A program made the position numbers and the translations under genes. This document shows, piece after piece, positions 4,467-20,218 of a stretch of 64,000 nt of DNA (positions within the stretch are counted from its first letter, which is position 1; every line of letters starts with the position of its first letter). Under the pieces are notes generated by a model that ran no database searches, had not been told where the DNA came from, and saw nothing but the letters and a program-made list of their open reading frames with translations. Source of the DNA: Synechococcus sp. RedBA-s (GTDB lineage: Bacteria; Cyanobacteriota; Cyanobacteriia; PCC-6307; Cyanobiaceae). The DNA lies in contig NZ_JAGQBF010000011.1 of NCBI RefSeq assembly GCF_024345495.1, positions 1-64,000 on the forward strand, read 5' to 3'.

Positions 4467-5552
4467 ATGACCGTGACCCCTTCCGAGATCAGCAGCACCG
4501 AGGCCGAACTGGATCCGACGGGGGAGGCCCCGGCAGATCTTGATCCGACCAGCGAGACCTCGGCTGATCTGAACTTCGACATTCCGGAAGAGGTCCCCAC
4601 AGCCGACGACCCCAGCAGCCGCGCCGCCAGCCGCGACACCGAAGGTGCCGGCTTCTCGCTGGAGGAGTTCGCCTCCCTGCTCAGCAAGTACGACTACAAC
4701 TTCAAGCCCGGCGACGTGGTCAACGGCACCGTGTTCGCCATGGAGCCCAAGGGCGCCATGATCGACATCGGCGCCAAGACCGCAGCCTTCATGCCACTGC
4801 AGGAGGTGTCGATCAACCGGGTCGAGAACCTCTCCGACGTGCTGGAGCCCGGTGAGATCCGTGAGTTCTTCATCCTCAGCGAGGAGAACGAGGACGGCCA
4901 GCTCACCCTCTCGATCCGCCGGATCGAATACCAGCGGGCCTGGGAGCGGGTGCGTCAGCTCCAGAAGGAAGACGCCACCATCTACTCGGAGGTGTTCGCC
5001 ACCAACCGCGGTGGTGCCCTGGTGCGGGTGGAAGGCCTGCGAGGCTTCATCCCCGGCAGCCACATCAGCACCCGCAAGCCCAAGGAAGATCTCGTTGCCG
5101 ATTTCCTCCCCCTCAAGTTCCTGGAGGTGGACGAGGAACGCAACCGCCTGGTGCTCAGCCATCGCCGCGCCCTGGTGGAGCGCAAGATGAATCGCCTCGA
5201 GGTGGGCGAGGTGGTGATCGGCACCGTGCGGGGGATCAAGCCCTACGGCGCTTTCATCGACATCGGCGGTGTCAGCGGCCTGCTGCACATCTCCGAGATC
5301 AGCCACGAGCACATCGAGACCCCCCACACGGTGCTCAACGTGAACGATCAGATGAAAGTGATGATCATCGACCTCGACGCCGAGCGGGGCCGCATCTCCC
5401 TCTCCACCAAAGCCCTCGAGCCCGAACCCGGTGACATGCTCACCGATCCCCAGAAGGTGTTCGACAAGGCCGAGGAAATGGCCGCCCGCTACAAGCAGAT
5501 GCTGCTGGAGCAGGCCGAGGAGAACGAGCCCATGGGCGTCACCCTCGACTGA
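4467..5552 (+). CDS. rpsA: 30S ribosomal protein S1
   Basis: A 361-residue protein with an acidic N-terminal extension of about 70 residues and three S1 RNA-binding domains (KPGDVVNGTVFAMEPKGAMI, the middle SEVFATNRGGALVRV domain, and VGEVVIGTVRGIKPYGAFID). Cyanobacterial S1 proteins have three domains, shorter than the six of E. coli. The protein helps load mRNA on the 30S subunit. It lies 105 bp downstream of nrdR, with a HAD phosphatase gene 32 bp after it. Cyanobacteria often carry a second S1-like gene, so the symbol may appear as rps1a elsewhere. Confidence 0.93.
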   Translation: MTVTPSEISSTEAELDPTGEAPADLDPTSETSADLNFDIPEEVPTADDPSSRAASRDTEGAGFSLEEFASLLSKYDYNFKPGDVVNGTVFAMEPKGAMIDIGAKTAAFMPLQEVSINRVENLSDVLEPGEIREFFILSEENEDGQLTLSIRRIEYQRAWERVRQLQKEDATIYSEVFATNRGGALVRVEGLRGFIPGSHISTRKPKEDLVADFLPLKFLEVDEERNRLVLSHRRALVERKMNRLEVGEVVIGTVRGIKPYGAFIDIGGVSGLLHISEISHEHIETPHTVLNVNDQMKVMIIDLDAERGRISLSTKALEPEPGDMLTDPQKVFDKAEEMAARYKQMLLEQAEENEPMGVTLD

Positions 5553-5584
5553 GCGCCATAGCCTGAGGCCCCTGCACCGATCCG

Positions 5585-6397
5585 ATGGCTGAACTGCTTC
5601 TGCGTGGTCAACCCCTCGGATCGGTTGAAGCCATCCTTTTTGACAAGGACGGCACCCTCAGCCTCAGTGAGCCGGGCCTGCTGGCCCTGAGCCGCGCCAG
5701 GCTCCAGGCCTGCCTGGAGCATCTGCCTGAAGCCAGCCGCCCCCAGTTCCAGCACCTGCTGGAGCGGGCCTACGGCCTGGAGAGCGATCGGCTCCACCCG
5801 GCGGGCACCACCGCCGTGGCCAGCCGCCAGCACAACCTGATCTCCACCGCCACCGCGTTCTGTCAGGTGGGTCTGGGATGGCCGGATGCCCTGGCCCACA
5901 GCGAAGCCGTGTTCGCGGCCACCGATCCGACCAGAGATCCGGCCACAGATCCAGCCGTAGATCGTGAGCTCATCCATGGCCAGGGGCCGCGTCCGGGCGA
6001 GGCGCCCCTGGCACCGCTCACCGAGGGGGTGAAGCCCCTGCTGCTGGAGCTGCACCGCTCGGGCGTGCTGCTGGCGGTGATCAGCAACGATGACAGCGAG
6101 GGAATCCATCGCTTCCTGGGCGGCCATGGGCTCTCCGAGCTGTTCCAGGAGATCTGGAGCGCCGACATGCGACCGCTGAAGCCGGATCCAGCGGCCGTGC
6201 ACGGGCTCTGCTCCAGGCTTGGCGTCAACCCTTCGGCCTGTGCCCTGATCGGGGATGCCAGCAGTGATCTGCGCATGGCCGAGGGGGCGGGGGTGGGCCT
6301 GGCCCTGGGCTACAGCGCCGGCTGGAGCAGCAGGCCGCCGCTGCCGGAGCATCTGCCCCATCTCGATCACTGGCAGGAGTTGGGAGTCGGGCGATAA
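5585..6397 (+). CDS. HAD-family hydrolase (phosphoglycolate phosphatase-like)
   Basis: A 270-residue soluble phosphatase. The HAD motif I is [10 protein letters not shown], with the nucleophile Asp20 and acid/base Asp22. Motif II is LAVISNDD, the conserved Lys is in RPLKPDP, and motif IV is [16 protein letters not shown]. An alpha-helical cap lies between motifs I and II. The repeated [11 protein letters not shown] stretch in the cap is unusual. Substrate cannot be told from sequence; phosphoglycolate phosphatase is one possibility. It sits just upstream of metK. Confidence 0.85.
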
Positions 6398-12381: not shown

Positions 12382-12900
12382 ATGTTCGACGCTTTCACCA
12401 AGGTCATTGCCCAGGCTGATGCCCGAGGCGAATTCCTCAGTTCTGGACAGATCGACGCCCTGGGGTCGATTGTTGCTGATAGCAACAAGAGAATGGATGC
12501 CGTCAACCGGATCACCTCCAACGCTTCCACGATCGTTGCCAATGCAGCCCGCGATCTGTTCGCTCAGCAACCGGCGCTGATCGCACCCGGGGGCAACGCT
12601 TACACAAGCCGCAGGATGGCCGCATGCCTACGTGACATGGAGATCATCCTCCGCTACATCACGTATTCCATTTTCACCGGAGACACATCCGTTCTCGAAG
12701 ATCGTTGCCTCAACGGCCTGCGGGAAACCTATCTTGCCCTTGGCACTCCTGGCGCTTCCGTCGCCGAAGGTGTACGCAAAATGAAGGATGCCTCCATTGC
12801 CATCGTCAACGATCGCGGCGGCATCACATCGGGCGATTGCAGCAACTTGATCTCCGAAATCGGCACCTACTTTGATCGCGCCGCCGCCGCCGTGGCCTGA
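12382..12900 (+). CDS. cpcB: Phycocyanin beta subunit
   Basis: A 172-residue rod phycobiliprotein. Bilin sites are Cys82 ([13 protein letters not shown]) and Cys153 (SGDCSNLI); Asn72 in PGGNAY is the residue methylated in this family. The N-terminus [20 protein letters not shown] is typical of C-phycocyanin. It lacks the extra Cys pair near 50/61 of phycoerythrin. It pairs with CpcA, whose gene starts 45 bp downstream, to form the alpha/beta monomers of the inner rods on the cytoplasmic face of thylakoids. Confidence 0.96.
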
Positions 12901-12945: not shown

Positions 12946-13437
12946 ATGTCGAAGACTCCGCTAACCGAGGCTGTCGCAGCTGCCGACTCCCAAGGCCGCT
13001 TTATAAGCAACACCGAAATCAACGCTGCCTTCGGACGCTTCACTCGAGCCAAGTCGGCTCTTGAGGCTGCTAAAGGATTGACAGCCAAAGCAGACACCCT
13101 TGTGAATGGTGCCGCTCAAGCCGTCTACAGCAAGTTCCCCTACACCACCCAGATGCAGGGGCCCACGTATGCTGCCGACCAACGCGGGAAGGACAAGTGC
13201 GCCCGTGATATCGGTTACTATCTGCGCATGGTCACCTACTGTCTTGTTGCTGGTGGCACCGGTCCGATGGACGAATATCTGATCGCTGGCATCGATGAGA
13301 TCAACCGTACCTTTGAACTTTCTCCCTCCTGGTACGTGGAGGCCCTGAAATACATCAAGGCCAACCACGGAATGAGTGGAGAGCCTGGAACCGAGGCGAA
13401 CAACTACATCGACTATGCCATCAACGCGCTTGTCTGA
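12946..13437 (+). CDS. cpcA: Phycocyanin alpha subunit
   Basis: A 163-residue protein with one bilin site, Cys85 (Cys84 in standard numbering), in [20 protein letters not shown]. The N-terminus [19 protein letters not shown] and C-terminus [13 protein letters not shown] are classical. The single Cys site with CpcE/CpcF encoded at 35-36.7 kb suggests phycocyanobilin attachment; no rpcG-type isomerase lyase is visible. It forms an operon with cpcB and is followed by a terminator. Confidence 0.96.
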
Positions 13438-13671: not shown

Positions 13672-14448
13672 ATGGCACTGCCTTTGCTTCCTGTTAGTAC
13701 GCTTACAATGAATGCGAGGGTCACCAGCTTCGCCCTGGCCGATGAGGAATGGAGCCGACAGTCCCAGTCGGCCGCGCGCAGCATCGCCGGGACCTGCGAT
13801 CGTCGTGATCTGGATATCCAGATCGAGCAGGCCTATCGACAGATCTTCTTCCACGCCTTCAAGGTGGACCGCGATCCCATGCTGGAATCCCAGTTGCGCT
13901 CCGGGCAAATCACCATGCGGGACTTCGTGCGTGGCCTACTGTTGTCGCAGAAATTCCGCGACGACTTCTACCGCTGCAACAGCAACTATCGAATGGTCGA
14001 GCAGACCATCGGCCGAGTGCTTGGGAGGCCCGTCTACGGTGACCAGGAACGCATCGCGTATTCGATTCTGATCGCCCAGCGTGGTCTTCCTTCCCTAGTG
14101 GATGCACTCCTGGATTCCGAAGAGTACATGCAGACCTTCGGTAACGATACGGTGCCCTTCCAGCGATCCCGTGTTCTGCCTGGACAGCCGGTGGGCACAA
14201 TGCCCTTCAACCAACAAGCCCCTCGCTATGGAGCCTACTGGCGGGACAGCATCGCCAAGCGGGCTCCCGCACAGTCGCTGACGTGGCAGAACAGCACCAT
14301 GGGTCAACTGCCTGACTGGCTGGCCAATGCCCCCGCTCCATGGGCTCGCAAGCTCTGGCTGAACACCGTCGCGGCAGGGGGCTTCGTGATCACTGGATTG
14401 ATGCTTTGGATCGCGCTTTCCATGCTCAGCACCGGTGGGCCGGGCTAG
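13672..14448 (+). CDS. cpcL: Membrane-anchored rod linker (CpcL/CpcG2 type)
   Basis: A 258-residue linker. The N-terminus MALPLLPVSTLTMNARVTSF is that of CpcG rod-core linkers, and the PBS linker domain covers about residues 38-180 (YRQIFF, LESQLRSGQITMRDFVRGLL, YRMVEQTIGRVLGRPVY, DALLDSEEYMQTFGNDTVP). Instead of a soluble tail it ends in a hydrophobic span at about 229-251 (LNTVAAGGFVITGLMLWIAL). In Synechocystis and Anabaena this architecture marks CpcL, which ties phycocyanin rods to the membrane near photosystem I/NDH-1 without a core. No ordinary cpcG is in the window. Confidence 0.8.
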   Translation: MALPLLPVSTLTMNARVTSFALADEEWSRQSQSAARSIAGTCDRRDLDIQIEQAYRQIFFHAFKVDRDPMLESQLRSGQITMRDFVRGLLLSQKFRDDFYRCNSNYRMVEQTIGRVLGRPVYGDQERIAYSILIAQRGLPSLVDALLDSEEYMQTFGNDTVPFQRSRVLPGQPVGTMPFNQQAPRYGAYWRDSIAKRAPAQSLTWQNSTMGQLPDWLANAPAPWARKLWLNTVAAGGFVITGLMLWIALSMLSTGGPG

Positions 14449-14521: not shown

Positions 14522-14986
14522 ATGAATGATTCTTGTCACAGGCTTCTCACCCTGCTGAAGTCATCTTATGGCCAGCATGACATCGTCGTCGACGAAGGTC
14601 AAACTGATCTACGCATAAATCTTCTCCCCGAAACCATCGATCTGTGGGGGGCTACTTACTCTCAGACAGACAACCCCGGCAACAATCTTCTGCTTGCCTG
14701 TTCCAGTTCAAGTGGACCAATTGAGGACACTTCATTGACCTGGGTCGTAGGCTCAGCGATCCGCCATGTTCATGTCAGCAGCGAGGATGAGTGTCGGCAG
14801 CTATTTCATGCTCTCGGACTGAAACCTGGGCTAGCAGATGCGATCGTCCGCCATTGTCCTGGTATAGCGAATGGAGCCATCTGGGCGTTGTATAATGAAC
14901 GACATGGACATCTAGTAGCAACTCCCGTGGTCTCTGCAGGGTTGGGACGTGAGGCAATGGCCAGGTTAGCCTCGATCTCCTCATGA
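14522..14986 (+). CDS. Unknown protein in the phycobilisome cassette
   Basis: A 154-residue protein beginning MNDSCHRLLTLLKSSYGQHD. I do not recognise a family. It is soluble, alpha/beta in appearance, with a serine-rich stretch (ACSSSSGP) near residue 60 and four cysteines. It begins 73 bp after the CpcL-type linker and ends 25 bp before the phycobiliprotein-like gene, on the same strand, so it probably belongs to that transcript. Its sequence is visibly less GC-rich than the housekeeping genes. Confidence 0.6.
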   Translation: MNDSCHRLLTLLKSSYGQHDIVVDEGQTDLRINLLPETIDLWGATYSQTDNPGNNLLLACSSSSGPIEDTSLTWVVGSAIRHVHVSSEDECRQLFHALGLKPGLADAIVRHCPGIANGAIWALYNERHGHLVATPVVSAGLGREAMARLASISS

Positions 14987-15011: not shown

Positions 15012-15614
15012 GTGATGGCGAAAAGCTTGCCTGAGATAATTGAAGGGGCTCGCATCCTTGGTCTTGCTCATGACAAGACCCTCCCGGCGAATGTTCGTGC
15101 AATTTTCCGGTGTGCTGATGATGCGAGCAGGCCTTTGACCACAAAGGAATTCGATGAGATTTGCCAGTTCTCCTGCATTGATTCCGAACCACTACGCCTG
15201 CTTCAAGAGAACGCCTCACAAGTAGTAGCAGACGTCAAGAGAAGACTGGTGGCAGAGGATCCTGGCCTGATCAAGCCCGGTGGATCACTTTTCCCGGAAA
15301 ATCGCTCCGAGGCATGCTGGCGCGACTGCTGGCATTTTCTCCGCATCGCCATCTATGCCGTGGCCGCTGATCGGCAGACATTCACGCACCCACCAGGAGT
15401 CAGCGGCTTACGTGTACTTTATCGAGAACTGGCCGTTCCTATCGACAGCATGGCCAAGGCTTTATGCTACCTGCGTGAAGTCGCATCTATTCACTACGGA
15501 TCGCTCGGCGGAAGCAAGGATACCTGGCGCCTGGAAATGGTCATTCGCCATCTGGAGGAGATGATCAGGGAGTTCTCTTGTCAAGCTGGAGAGGCAGGAG
15601 CCACTGTTCTGTGA
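15012..15614 (+). CDS. Divergent phycobiliprotein-family protein
   Basis: A 200-residue homologue of phycobiliprotein subunits. The segment from about residue 66 (ENASQVVADVKRRLVAEDPG) to 150 follows the beta/allophycocyanin pattern (NAS-IVANAAR-LFAEQP, then PGG, then LRxxxYA). The bilin motif is kept: Cys102-Trp-Arg104-Asp105 in ACWRDCWHFLRIAIYAVAAD matches C-x-R-D at Cys82/84 of true subunits. The N-terminus is about 20 residues longer, and the Asn72 position is Ser (PGGSLF). It is too divergent for CpcA/B, CpeA/B or standard ApcA/B/D/F. It could bind a bilin, act as a specialised terminal emitter, or chaperone. Confidence 0.75.
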   Translation: MMAKSLPEIIEGARILGLAHDKTLPANVRAIFRCADDASRPLTTKEFDEICQFSCIDSEPLRLLQENASQVVADVKRRLVAEDPGLIKPGGSLFPENRSEACWRDCWHFLRIAIYAVAADRQTFTHPPGVSGLRVLYRELAVPIDSMAKALCYLREVASIHYGSLGGSKDTWRLEMVIRHLEEMIREFSCQAGEAGATVL

Positions 15615-15724: not shown

Positions 15725-16426
15725 ATGGGCCTCGTGCATAGCGCATCGCAATCCTCCATAGTGCCTGGTTGGCTTCCTCCGGAATCCAAACTCCCTTCCA
15801 ACCAGGCCATCGATCGTGCTTTCGACGCTAGAGGAGCTGATTGGCGTGGGCTGGATCTCGGTGCTACTGATCTCACAGAAGCACGTCTTTGTCGTGTCGA
15901 TTTAAGGGGAACGAATCTGAGTGAATGCACACTCGATGGAGCCGATCTGCGACTAGCTCGATATGACGGCATGACCATCTGGCCAGACAACTACGAGTAT
16001 CGAGATTCCGGTGCAGTAGGTCCTAAGGCCAAGTTAAGCGGCCACTTTCTCAATAGCGCCGATCTTTCCGGCATGGACCTGAGCGGCTCCCTATTGATGG
16101 GTGCATACCTCAGCGGCGCAGATCTCAGCGGTGCTTGCCTGAGAGGAGTGCGCCTGGCAGGAGCGGATCTGCGTCATGCCGTGCTGCGCGGTGCTCTTTG
16201 CGAAGGGGTGCGTTTCTCAGGTTGTCAGCTGGATTATGCCGATTTTCGTTGGGCGAGCCTGACTGATGCTGACCTTTCAGCAGCCGAATCGATCCGTGGT
16301 TCCGACTTCACGAGCTCATCAGGGCTGGACTCGATTCGAGAGACCCTGATCGGACGGCCGTTCCAGGAGCTGGACTGTTGGAACCCTCTCACTCGCCATA
16401 CGACCCGCGACAGCCTGATGACCTAA
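15725..16426 (+). CDS. Pentapeptide-repeat protein
   Basis: A 233-residue protein built on A(D/N)LXX repeats, first at about residues 38-80 (GADWRGLDLGATDLTEARLC) and again at 107-190 (SADLSGMDLSGSLLMGAYLS). Between them is a non-repeat insert with WPDNYEYRDSGAVGP. Such proteins fold as right-handed quadrilateral beta helices; function cannot be predicted from the repeats. No signal peptide or membrane span is seen, so it is probably cytoplasmic. It lies between the phycobiliprotein-like gene and ferrochelatase on the same strand. Confidence 0.8.
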   Translation: MGLVHSASQSSIVPGWLPPESKLPSNQAIDRAFDARGADWRGLDLGATDLTEARLCRVDLRGTNLSECTLDGADLRLARYDGMTIWPDNYEYRDSGAVGPKAKLSGHFLNSADLSGMDLSGSLLMGAYLSGADLSGACLRGVRLAGADLRHAVLRGALCEGVRFSGCQLDYADFRWASLTDADLSAAESIRGSDFTSSSGLDSIRETLIGRPFQELDCWNPLTRHTTRDSLMT

Positions 16427-16444: not shown

Positions 16445-17644
16445 ATGGACCATCACCCTCCCACAGACCATGCCAAGGTCGGCGTGGTTCTCCTGAACCT
16501 CGGAGGCCCTGAGCGGATTGAGGATGTCGCCCCGTTTCTCTATAACCTATTCTCCGATCCGGAAATCATCCGGCTTCCAACCCCGGTGCTGCAGAAGCCC
16601 CTGGCTTGGCTGATCAGCAGCCTGCGCAGCAACAAGTCCAAGCAAGCTTATCGCTCGATTGGCGGGGGTTCCCCTCTACGCCGCATCACCGAGCAGCAGG
16701 CCCGCGAACTGCAGAGCGAGCTGCGGGCGCGAGGAATCGAGGCCACAAGCTACGTAGCCATGCGCTATTGGCATCCCTTCACCGAGTCGGCCGTGGCCGA
16801 CATCAAAGCGGACGGGATGGATCAGGTGGTGGTGTTGCCTCTCTACCCCCATTTCTCGATCAGTACCAGCGGGTCCAGCTTTCGGGAACTGCAGCGCCTG
16901 CGTAGAGCTGATCCAGACTTCGCAAAGCTTCCGATCCACTGCATCCGCGGTTACTACGACGACCCCGGCTACTTAGGGGCCATGGCCGAACTGATCTCTC
17001 GGGAGATTCAGGCCTGTCCCGAACCCGGCAGCGCCCATGTGTTCTTCAGCGCCCATGGCGTGCCCAAGAGCTACGTGGAAGTGGCGGGCGATCCCTATCA
17101 GAACGAGATCGAGACCTGCGCCCGCCTGATCATGGAAAGACTGGCCCGCGACCTAGGCCACTCAAACCCTTGCACCCTGGCCTACCAGAGCCGGGTGGGC
17201 CCAGTGGAGTGGCTGAAGCCCTACACCGATGAAGCCCTGCATGAGCTTGGTGAAGCAGGCGTGAAGGATCTGGTGGTGGTGCCCATCAGCTTCGTGAGCG
17301 AGCACATCGAGACCCTCGAGGAAATCGACATCGAATACCGGGAGATCGCCACACAGGTGGGCATCCTCAACTTCCGCCGTGTACCGGCCCTCGACACCAC
17401 CCCCTCCTTCATCCACGGGTTGGCCGATCTGGTGCAGAAAGCCCTGGCCGGGCCGGAGGTAAACCTTGACCAGGCAGCCACACTTCACATCAAGGTGAAG
17501 CTGTATCCACAGGACAAGTGGGCCTGGGGCTGGAACAACAGCTCGGAAGTGTGGAACGGGCGGCTTGCTATGTTGGGAACCTTGGTAATCCTGATGGAAC
17601 TACTGAGCGGCAACGGGCCTCTGCACGCCATCAATCTGCTTTGA
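16445..17644 (+). CDS. hemH: Ferrochelatase with C-terminal chlorophyll-binding-like domain
   Basis: A 399-residue enzyme inserting iron into protoporphyrin IX. Motifs include [32 protein letters not shown] with the catalytic His, and [16 protein letters not shown]. After a linker the last 45 residues carry a CAB/Hlip-like helix [20 protein letters not shown], typical of cyanobacterial and plant plastid ferrochelatases, which anchors the enzyme in the membrane. Its position inside the phycobilisome locus is unusual and suggests coupling of heme supply to heme oxygenase (28626) and bilin synthesis. Confidence 0.95.
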
Positions 17645-18688: not shown

Positions 18689-20218
18689 ATGTCTTCCCAG
18701 TCAGCAGCCCTGAGCTTTGGTGCCACCACTCTCCTCGATGCACCTGCTTCTTACAAGCTCGGCGCCGATGAAACGAGCCTGAACCTCGTGATCAGCGCCT
18801 CTTACCGGCATGTGTTCGGCAACACCATGCCCATGGAAAGCGAGCGTATTGACTCTGCCGAATCACAACTTCGCAACGGCACCATCTCGGTACGCGATTT
18901 TGTCCGCTGCCTGGCCAAGTCACCCTTCTATCGCTCACGCTTTTACGAAGCCGTTGCGCCTCACCGTTCGGTTGAACTGGCCATCAAGCATCTGCTGGGG
19001 CGACCTCCCATCGACGAGGCTGAGGTGAGCACGCACGTAGCTATAATCGCCAACGAAGGCTTTGAAGCGGATGTCGACGCCCTGATCGATTCCGACGAGT
19101 ACGCCTCAGCCTTTGGAGAACATACGGCACCCCATATCCGTTCCTGGAACAGCCCAGAAGGGGCAGCACAGTCGTCCTTCAATCGCATCGCCGCGCTGGA
19201 GCAGAGCTTCGCTGGCAGCGACATCGCAATGGGGTCACGTAGCCAGTTGCTGACCAACCTCGCCATGGGACAGCCAATAACCATTCGTCTGCCGGCACAT
19301 GCTTACCTCACCCAGTCCGGAAGAAGCTTTTCTGGCTCGGGTATGAGCAGTCGAGGAGCCTTTGCTCCTGTGCGCCGAAGCAGCAGCGATGGCGGTGATA
19401 GCTCAAGCCTGAGAGGTGATCTGTATGTGGGCTTCGGTCTTGGCCAGCGCAGTCAGGAGGTCTTCCAGCGTTGCCAGGGAGACACTGCCGACCAGATCCA
19501 GGCACTGATCCGTGCCACCTACCGGCAGGTGATGGGTAACCCTCATCTGATGGAAAGCGAGCGCGTGCTCACCTCAGAAAGCAAGTTCATCGAGGGTTAT
19601 CTGAGCACCCGTGAGTTCGTGCGTTCCATTGCCTGCTCCCAGGAATACCGTCGCCGCTTTTTTGAAACCAACGCTCCCTATCGTTTCGTAGAGCTCAACT
19701 TCAAGCACCTGCTCGGCCGCGCACCTAACTCCCAGGCGGAAGTGAGTGAACACATCCGCCTGCTGGCTGAAAACGGCTATGAGGCAGACATCAGCAGCTA
19801 CCTCGATAGCACCGAATATCAGACGTACTTCGGTGAAGATACAGTTCCCTTCCCCCGTATCCAGACGGAGAATGGCCGCGACCAGATCGGCTTCAATCGC
19901 CACCTGTCGCTGGTGGCGGGATATTCAAGCAGTGACACCATTCAGAATTCCTCAAGTCTGGTGAATTCGCTGGCGGCCAAAGCGCTCCCTGCCGGATGGA
20001 GCAACACAACCGTGCGGATCAATCGCTCGAGTGTTTTCAGCGGCTCTGTAGATCCCACCACAAAAAGGTATCGGATCGTTGTACAAGCGCAACCCGCTGG
20101 AGGGCGCCAGCGCACCCCGAATGCCAGCTATCTGGTATCCGGCAAGGACATGACGACCCAACTGGGTTATATCCATCGCCGTGGGGGCCGAATTGTCTCG
20201 ATCACGGAAGTGGCCTGA
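18689..20218 (+). CDS. Double-domain phycobilisome rod linker
   Basis: A 509-residue linker with two full PBS linker domains, about residues 30-165 (ISASYRHVFGNTMPMESERI, VELAIKHLLGRPP) and 270-405 (IRATYRQVMGNPHLMESERV, VELNFKHLLGRAP), plus a C-terminal CpcD domain (YRIVVQAQPAGG ... LGYIHRRGGRIVSITEV). The domains are joined by a Ser/Gly-rich stretch around residues 205-250. Ordinary rod linkers have one such domain, so this protein could span two hexamers. The second half resembles CpeD. It lies 54 bp after cpeC. Confidence 0.82.
   Translation: MSSQSAALSFGATTLLDAPASYKLGADETSLNLVISASYRHVFGNTMPMESERIDSAESQLRNGTISVRDFVRCLAKSPFYRSRFYEAVAPHRSVELAIKHLLGRPPIDEAEVSTHVAIIANEGFEADVDALIDSDEYASAFGEHTAPHIRSWNSPEGAAQSSFNRIAALEQSFAGSDIAMGSRSQLLTNLAMGQPITIRLPAHAYLTQSGRSFSGSGMSSRGAFAPVRRSSSDGGDSSSLRGDLYVGFGLGQRSQEVFQRCQGDTADQIQALIRATYRQVMGNPHLMESERVLTSESKFIEGYLSTREFVRSIACSQEYRRRFFETNAPYRFVELNFKHLLGRAPNSQAEVSEHIRLLAENGYEADISSYLDSTEYQTYFGEDTVPFPRIQTENGRDQIGFNRHLSLVAGYSSSDTIQNSSSLVNSLAAKALPAGWSNTTVRINRSSVFSGSVDPTTKRYRIVVQAQPAGGRQRTPNASYLVSGKDMTTQLGYIHRRGGRIVSITEVA

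Follow-up and report, generated by a model that had tools for sequence, protein, structure and literature searches.

The window, that is, the whole stretch of 64,000 nucleotides of Synechococcus sp. RedBA-s DNA that was analysed, contains a series of phycobilisome-related genes in the order cpcB, cpcA, a gene for a CpcG-type linker, unk4, aplA, unk5, hemH, linker genes, cpeS and cpeT. All of the window features given below lie on the forward strand. The genes for phycocyanin beta (cpcB/rpcB, 12382..12900) and phycocyanin alpha (cpcA/rpcA, 12946..13437) score over the cut-offs of their curated models (TIGR01339, 327 bits, and TIGR01338, 301 bits, respectively), and the gene that follows them (13672..14448) encodes a CpcG-type rod-core linker, which matches PF00427 and reaches 174 bits, under the cut-off, with the NCBIfam CpcG1 model. 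Next come unk4 (14522..14986), which encodes 154 amino acids and lies directly upstream of aplA, in agreement with the upstream position given for it by Six et al. 2007 (PMC2246261), and aplA itself (15012..15614), which encodes an allophycocyanin-like phycobiliprotein. Downstream of aplA are unk5 (15725..16426), which encodes a protein with pentapeptide repeats that belongs to the phycobilisome rod region (PF00805; Six et al. 2007), and hemH (16445..17644), which encodes a ferrochelatase (PF00762, E 2e-117) and has been noted in Type IIB phycobilisome clusters (PMC6363710). At its C-terminus the ferrochelatase also matches the chlorophyll a/b-binding family, though weakly and under the cut-off (E 0.009). 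Separately, the linker gene at 18689-20218 encodes a 509-residue protein in which a single frame carries two PBS_linker_poly domains and then a CpcD domain.

The surroundings of aplA are those of the Type IIB phycobilisome cluster published for freshwater and brackish Synechococcus, of which the window is a further instance. Type IIB clusters are described as having cpcBA upstream of aplA, plus a ferrochelatase (PMC6363710), and AplA is drawn in a figure comparing phycobilisome cluster types, IIB included (PMC6776005). The window shares with them cpcBA upstream of aplA, hemH and cpeT, as well as the single phycoerythrin pair in the genome, and differs in nothing notable. The gene region of marine Synechococcus is similar: Six et al. 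2007 (PMC2246261) report aplA from all PEII-containing strains, where it precedes cpcGII and is itself preceded by unk4. In the RCC307 and WH7803 loci the order is unk4-aplA-cpcG-unk5, and unk4 is upstream of aplA both there and in the window. A cpcG gene is also nearby in both cases, although it lies upstream of aplA in the window and downstream in the marine strains.

The aplA frame is open over 200 codons, ends in TGA and begins with two neighbouring start codons, GTG at 15012 and ATG at 15015. In a more distant orthologue (locus L017, 48% identical) the start aligns with the ATG, and on the basis of this alignment a product of 199 amino acids from ATG 15015 appears more likely than one of 200 amino acids from GTG 15012. 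Residues are numbered below from the ATG; note that the cysteine of the C-W-R-D motif is Cys101 in this numbering and Cys102 when counted from the GTG. Since congeners keep an intact copy at 93-94% protein identity, aplA is a real gene. A viral origin was considered and ruled out, as viral contigs contained no relatives.

The first-pass annotation had proposed a divergent phycobiliprotein homologue at 15012-15614, and the profile searches bear this out: PF00502 matches residues 34-161 with an E-value of 5.1e-28 and 98.4 bits (cut-off 22.2), and the PDB sequence matches listed for the protein are phycobiliproteins or derivatives of these. An identity as an NblB-like protein is ruled out by Pfam and NCBIfam, according to which the product is a phycobiliprotein and not a HEAT-repeat protein. 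Among the NCBIfam subunit models, the best score is that of ApcA (58.8 bits, cut-off 270), followed by CpeB (51.8 bits, cut-off 275) and ApcB (50.5 bits, cut-off 228). Every curated model that is matched, namely ApcA, ApcB, CpcB, CpeA and CpeB, gives a score far under its cut-off, and the protein is therefore none of these subunits. Together with the tree described next, these scores uphold the earlier distinction of the protein from CpcA/B, CpeA/B and ApcA/B/D/F.

A maximum-likelihood tree of 54 phycobiliproteins was rooted at its midpoint; some of the AplA terminal branches are long. A 100/100 branch of this tree separates 18 AplA rows from all canonical subunits, ApcD and ApcF included, a split that under a midpoint root represents the two sides of a branch and not proof of a rooted AplA clade. 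The window protein is outside all of the standard subunit groups and belongs to a picocyanobacterial set of eight (99/99) together with RCC307 and WH7803, while the AplA side also holds homologues from Tolypothrix, Calothrix and Moorena. Named relatives occur in Synechococcus RCC307 and WH7803, Tolypothrix, Calothrix, Moorena, Oscillatoria and others, and a Black Sea strain is among the closest. The picocyanobacterial AplA branch is long, with about 30-40% identity to the filamentous homologues.

Divergence from all curated subunit models could also be read as the mark of a new, unclassified family of bilin proteins, but we give this reading almost no credence: the window row groups with the AplA of RCC307 and WH7803, strains in which aplA has been published and which share its side of the 100/100 branch, and both the tree and the synteny of the two loci, with unk4 upstream of aplA, refute it. 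The suggestion of a specialised, non-standard protein of bilin-binding type is correct insofar as both tree and alignment put the protein outside the canonical clades; the protein is AplA, however, rather than an unclassified novelty. The gene was named in 2004 and located in the gene region of marine Synechococcus in 2007 (Six et al. 2007, PMC2246261). It is already described and widely conserved, and the window copy is a further member, found in a cluster type that has been published.

For the comparison of individual residues, 36 canonical subunits were aligned with 55 AplA rows, some of which are duplicated between the two source sets. The Cys, the Trp at Cys+1, the Arg and the Asp of the C-W-R-D motif are each present in 55/55 AplA rows, and in the window protein they correspond to Cys101-Trp-Arg-Asp104, encoded at 15315..15326, which is the predicted bilin attachment site. 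The site noted in the first pass is thus retained, Cys and Arg/Asp included, and the protein is predicted from these residues to carry a bilin. An alignment of orthologues from 14 genomes gives the same picture: C-W-R-D is invariant, G-G-x-L is near-invariant and the N-terminal extension is present. Relative to the position of ApcA Met1, in an alignment with ApcA/B/D/F, CpcA/B and CpeA/B, this extension comprises 23 residues in the window protein (codons 15015..15083) and 23-25 in the family. This is slightly shorter than in the Apl class of 2004, where Montgomery and co-workers reportedly found about 28 amino acids relative to allophycocyanins. Membership of the phycobiliprotein family, an N-terminal extension and the bilin site are all common to the window protein and to the AplA/Apl class of Fremyella diplosiphon and marine Synechococcus.

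The position of ApcA Asn71 (Asn72 in the first-pass annotation) is occupied by Asn in all ApcA/B/D/F, CpcB and CpeB rows of the alignment, whereas the AplA rows mostly have Gly, Ala, Asp or Ser; the window protein has Ser. The residue at Cys+5 is Trp in 48, Phe in 6 and Tyr in 1 of the 55 AplA rows, and it is Trp106, the second Trp, in the window protein. The Apl class is also reported to have substitutions at positions that matter for alpha-beta contacts and tertiary structure. In the alignment, several otherwise conserved positions are changed in AplA (ApcA Asn71, Cys+1, Cys+5 to Cys+7 and Asp100), and ApcA Asp12, Arg90 and Tyr94 are retained. The extension, the Ser and the extra Trp had been listed as peculiarities of this protein; they are indeed present, but all of them are traits of the AplA family, and in the alignment none of the odd residues is particular to the window protein.

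Compared with ApcA and ApcD, the protein has in common the bilin-site residues Cys, Arg and Asp and its best equivalog score, that of ApcA; it differs in scoring far under the 270-bit cut-off, in lying across the 100/100 branch, in lacking the Asn, and in having extra Trp residues and an N-terminal extension. A minor energy-transfer subunit within the phycobilisome, either a terminal emitter or a quencher, would be consistent with the allophycocyanin-like sequence, the conserved bilin site and the aromatic residues adjoining it. We consider such a subunit quite improbable, since ApcA Asn71 is lost, Trp, His or Phe are found at Cys+5 to Cys+7, the N-terminus is extended, and the AplA of F. diplosiphon is cited by Six et al. 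2007 (PMC2246261) as having no phycobilisome link.

An AlphaFold2 model of AplA, calculated from a 37-row alignment, has a mean pLDDT of 91.9, and the best 50 Foldseek matches of this model are all phycobiliproteins, although the overall superposition is poor, with an rmsd of about 8 A. Residues 143-191 are modelled as one long C-terminal helix where two are usual in phycobiliproteins. We do not take this single helix literally because Pro occurs close to that point in several orthologues, and absence of the canonical G-H turn is accordingly not claimed.

The neighbouring unk4 is conserved beside aplA in picocyanobacteria, and the two genes are probably co-transcribed. Its product has neither a meaningful Pfam match nor a PDB sequence match; the structure model is confident (pLDDT 90.1), and a fold search of it against the PDB gave no match with E < 1. 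The possibility that unk4 encodes a known type of lyase was dropped on these results.

The distribution of AplA was compared with that of phycoerythrin beta (CpeB) in 291 cyanobacterial genomes. Scores of the AplA profile leave a clean gap between genomes with at least 146.8 bits and those with at most 112.8 bits, and CpeB was called by its curated cut-off. Both proteins are found in 69 genomes, AplA only in 9, CpeB only in 14 and neither in 199 (Fisher p 3e-42, shared ancestry not corrected for). Nine of the 14 CpeB-only genomes belong to the picocyanobacterial family of the window; among the 247 non-picocyanobacteria, 53 genomes have both, 9 AplA only and 5 CpeB only. Within the genus of the window, AplA is present in 4/4 genomes with CpeB and in 0/5 without it. 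Among the nine AplA-only genomes are several fragmented assemblies. Two others, G046 and G065, are near complete and lack phycoerythrin beta, yet keep a clear AplA and a high-scoring homologue of the HEAT-repeat family described below, so that the tie between AplA and phycoerythrin is not absolute. The 2007 marine pattern might suggest that AplA is specific to phycoerythrin II, but this does not hold in general: the 12 PF00502 matches in the window genome include only a single phycoerythrin alpha/beta pair, and aplA is present in many filamentous genomes. That aplA tracks phycoerythrin across cyanobacteria is a modest new result of the present analysis.

Outside picocyanobacteria, the neighbours of aplA in 38 loci include pebA/pebB, CpeS-like, CpeT, HEAT-repeat lyase-like and phycoerythrin linker genes. 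One HEAT-repeat family of about 219 amino acids lies near aplA in 27 of the 38 loci; it is NblB-like at 103 bits, where the NblB equivalog cut-off is 300. For example, in locus L091 such a gene (5063-5722, reverse strand) is divergent from aplA, and homologues stand beside aplA in many genomes. A genome search with a profile of this family found it, at 219 bits or more, in 57 of the 62 AplA-containing non-picocyanobacterial genomes, in 40 of them at most 3 kb from aplA and in 39 divergent from it. At the same threshold it was found in 0/44 picocyanobacteria, the best score in the window genome being 107 bits, and the window aplA differs from most loci outside picocyanobacteria in having no NblB-like HEAT neighbour. 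Note that the profile was built from aplA-adjacent genes, that some species repeat between the two sets, and that the HEAT gene itself tracks phycoerythrin, being present in 56/58 CpeB-containing non-picocyanobacterial genomes; for these reasons the HEAT protein is only a candidate partner of AplA. A comparison with HEAT-repeat proteins of the NblB or CpcE-CpcF type concerns this neighbour, AplA itself being unrelated to NblB. In loci L077, L080, L089, L098 and L115, from Moorena, Hydrococcus and Calothrix, aplA is followed directly by a CpeS-like gene, whose product is a candidate AplA lyase.

These neighbourhoods bear on the possibility that AplA works with HEAT-repeat lyase-like proteins on phycoerythrin, as a factor for maturation, bilin carriage or assembly/turnover. 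The divergent HEAT gene, the CpeS-like genes that directly follow aplA in some Moorena, Hydrococcus and Calothrix, and the pebA/pebB genes that adjoin aplA in many loci all point this way, but the HEAT gene follows phycoerythrin about as closely as AplA does, so that adjacency may only mirror the phycoerythrin region, and it is below threshold in all 44 picocyanobacteria, the window genome included. We regard this role as plausible at somewhat less than even odds. A more specific proposal is that AplA and the NblB-like HEAT protein, encoded divergently in the majority of cyanobacteria with phycoerythrin other than picocyanobacteria, together make up an undescribed module that handles or senses bilins in phycoerythrin biogenesis, with unk4 replacing the HEAT protein in picocyanobacteria; this seems rather unlikely at present.

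Antenna-type globin biliproteins are as a rule no photoswitches, and this general knowledge speaks against the other role to be weighed, that of a photosensor for light colour, bilin-dependent and located outside the phycobilisome, whose signal would regulate the phycoerythrin genes. AplA also lacks a fused output domain, and the neighbours of aplA include no conserved signalling protein apart from a scattered cluster in 7 loci. On the other hand, the invariant bilin site and the tracking of phycoerythrin agree with a sensor, and Six et al. 2007 (PMC2246261) cite the F. diplosiphon AplA as a photosensor of unknown function without a link to the phycobilisome. Like the maturation role, this one is a serious possibility that falls short of being probable, and we rate sensor and maturation factor about equally likely.

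The favoured interpretation, which covers both roles, is that AplA serves the phycoerythrin system as a bilin protein that is not part of the antenna. A lyase would attach one bilin to Cys101, Arg103 and Asp104 would hold it, and the protein would remain separate from the phycobilisome and be dedicated to assisting the phycoerythrin system, either as a light-colour sensor or as a maturation/assembly factor. In F. diplosiphon, AplA was reportedly found by Montgomery and co-workers in 2004 to have a covalent chromophore and to be absent from phycobilisomes. Taken jointly, it is highly probable that the window gene is aplA, of the Apl class, and that its product would be a bilin accessory of the phycoerythrin system outside the phycobilisome.

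AplA has been known since 2004, and among the papers searched we found no later functional study and no established function. What is new here is modest: the co-occurrence of AplA and phycoerythrin in 291 genomes and the divergent pairing with a HEAT gene outside picocyanobacteria. The sole part of wider interest is that the phycoerythrin link and the divergent NblB-like HEAT neighbour provide concrete partner and lyase candidates for AplA.
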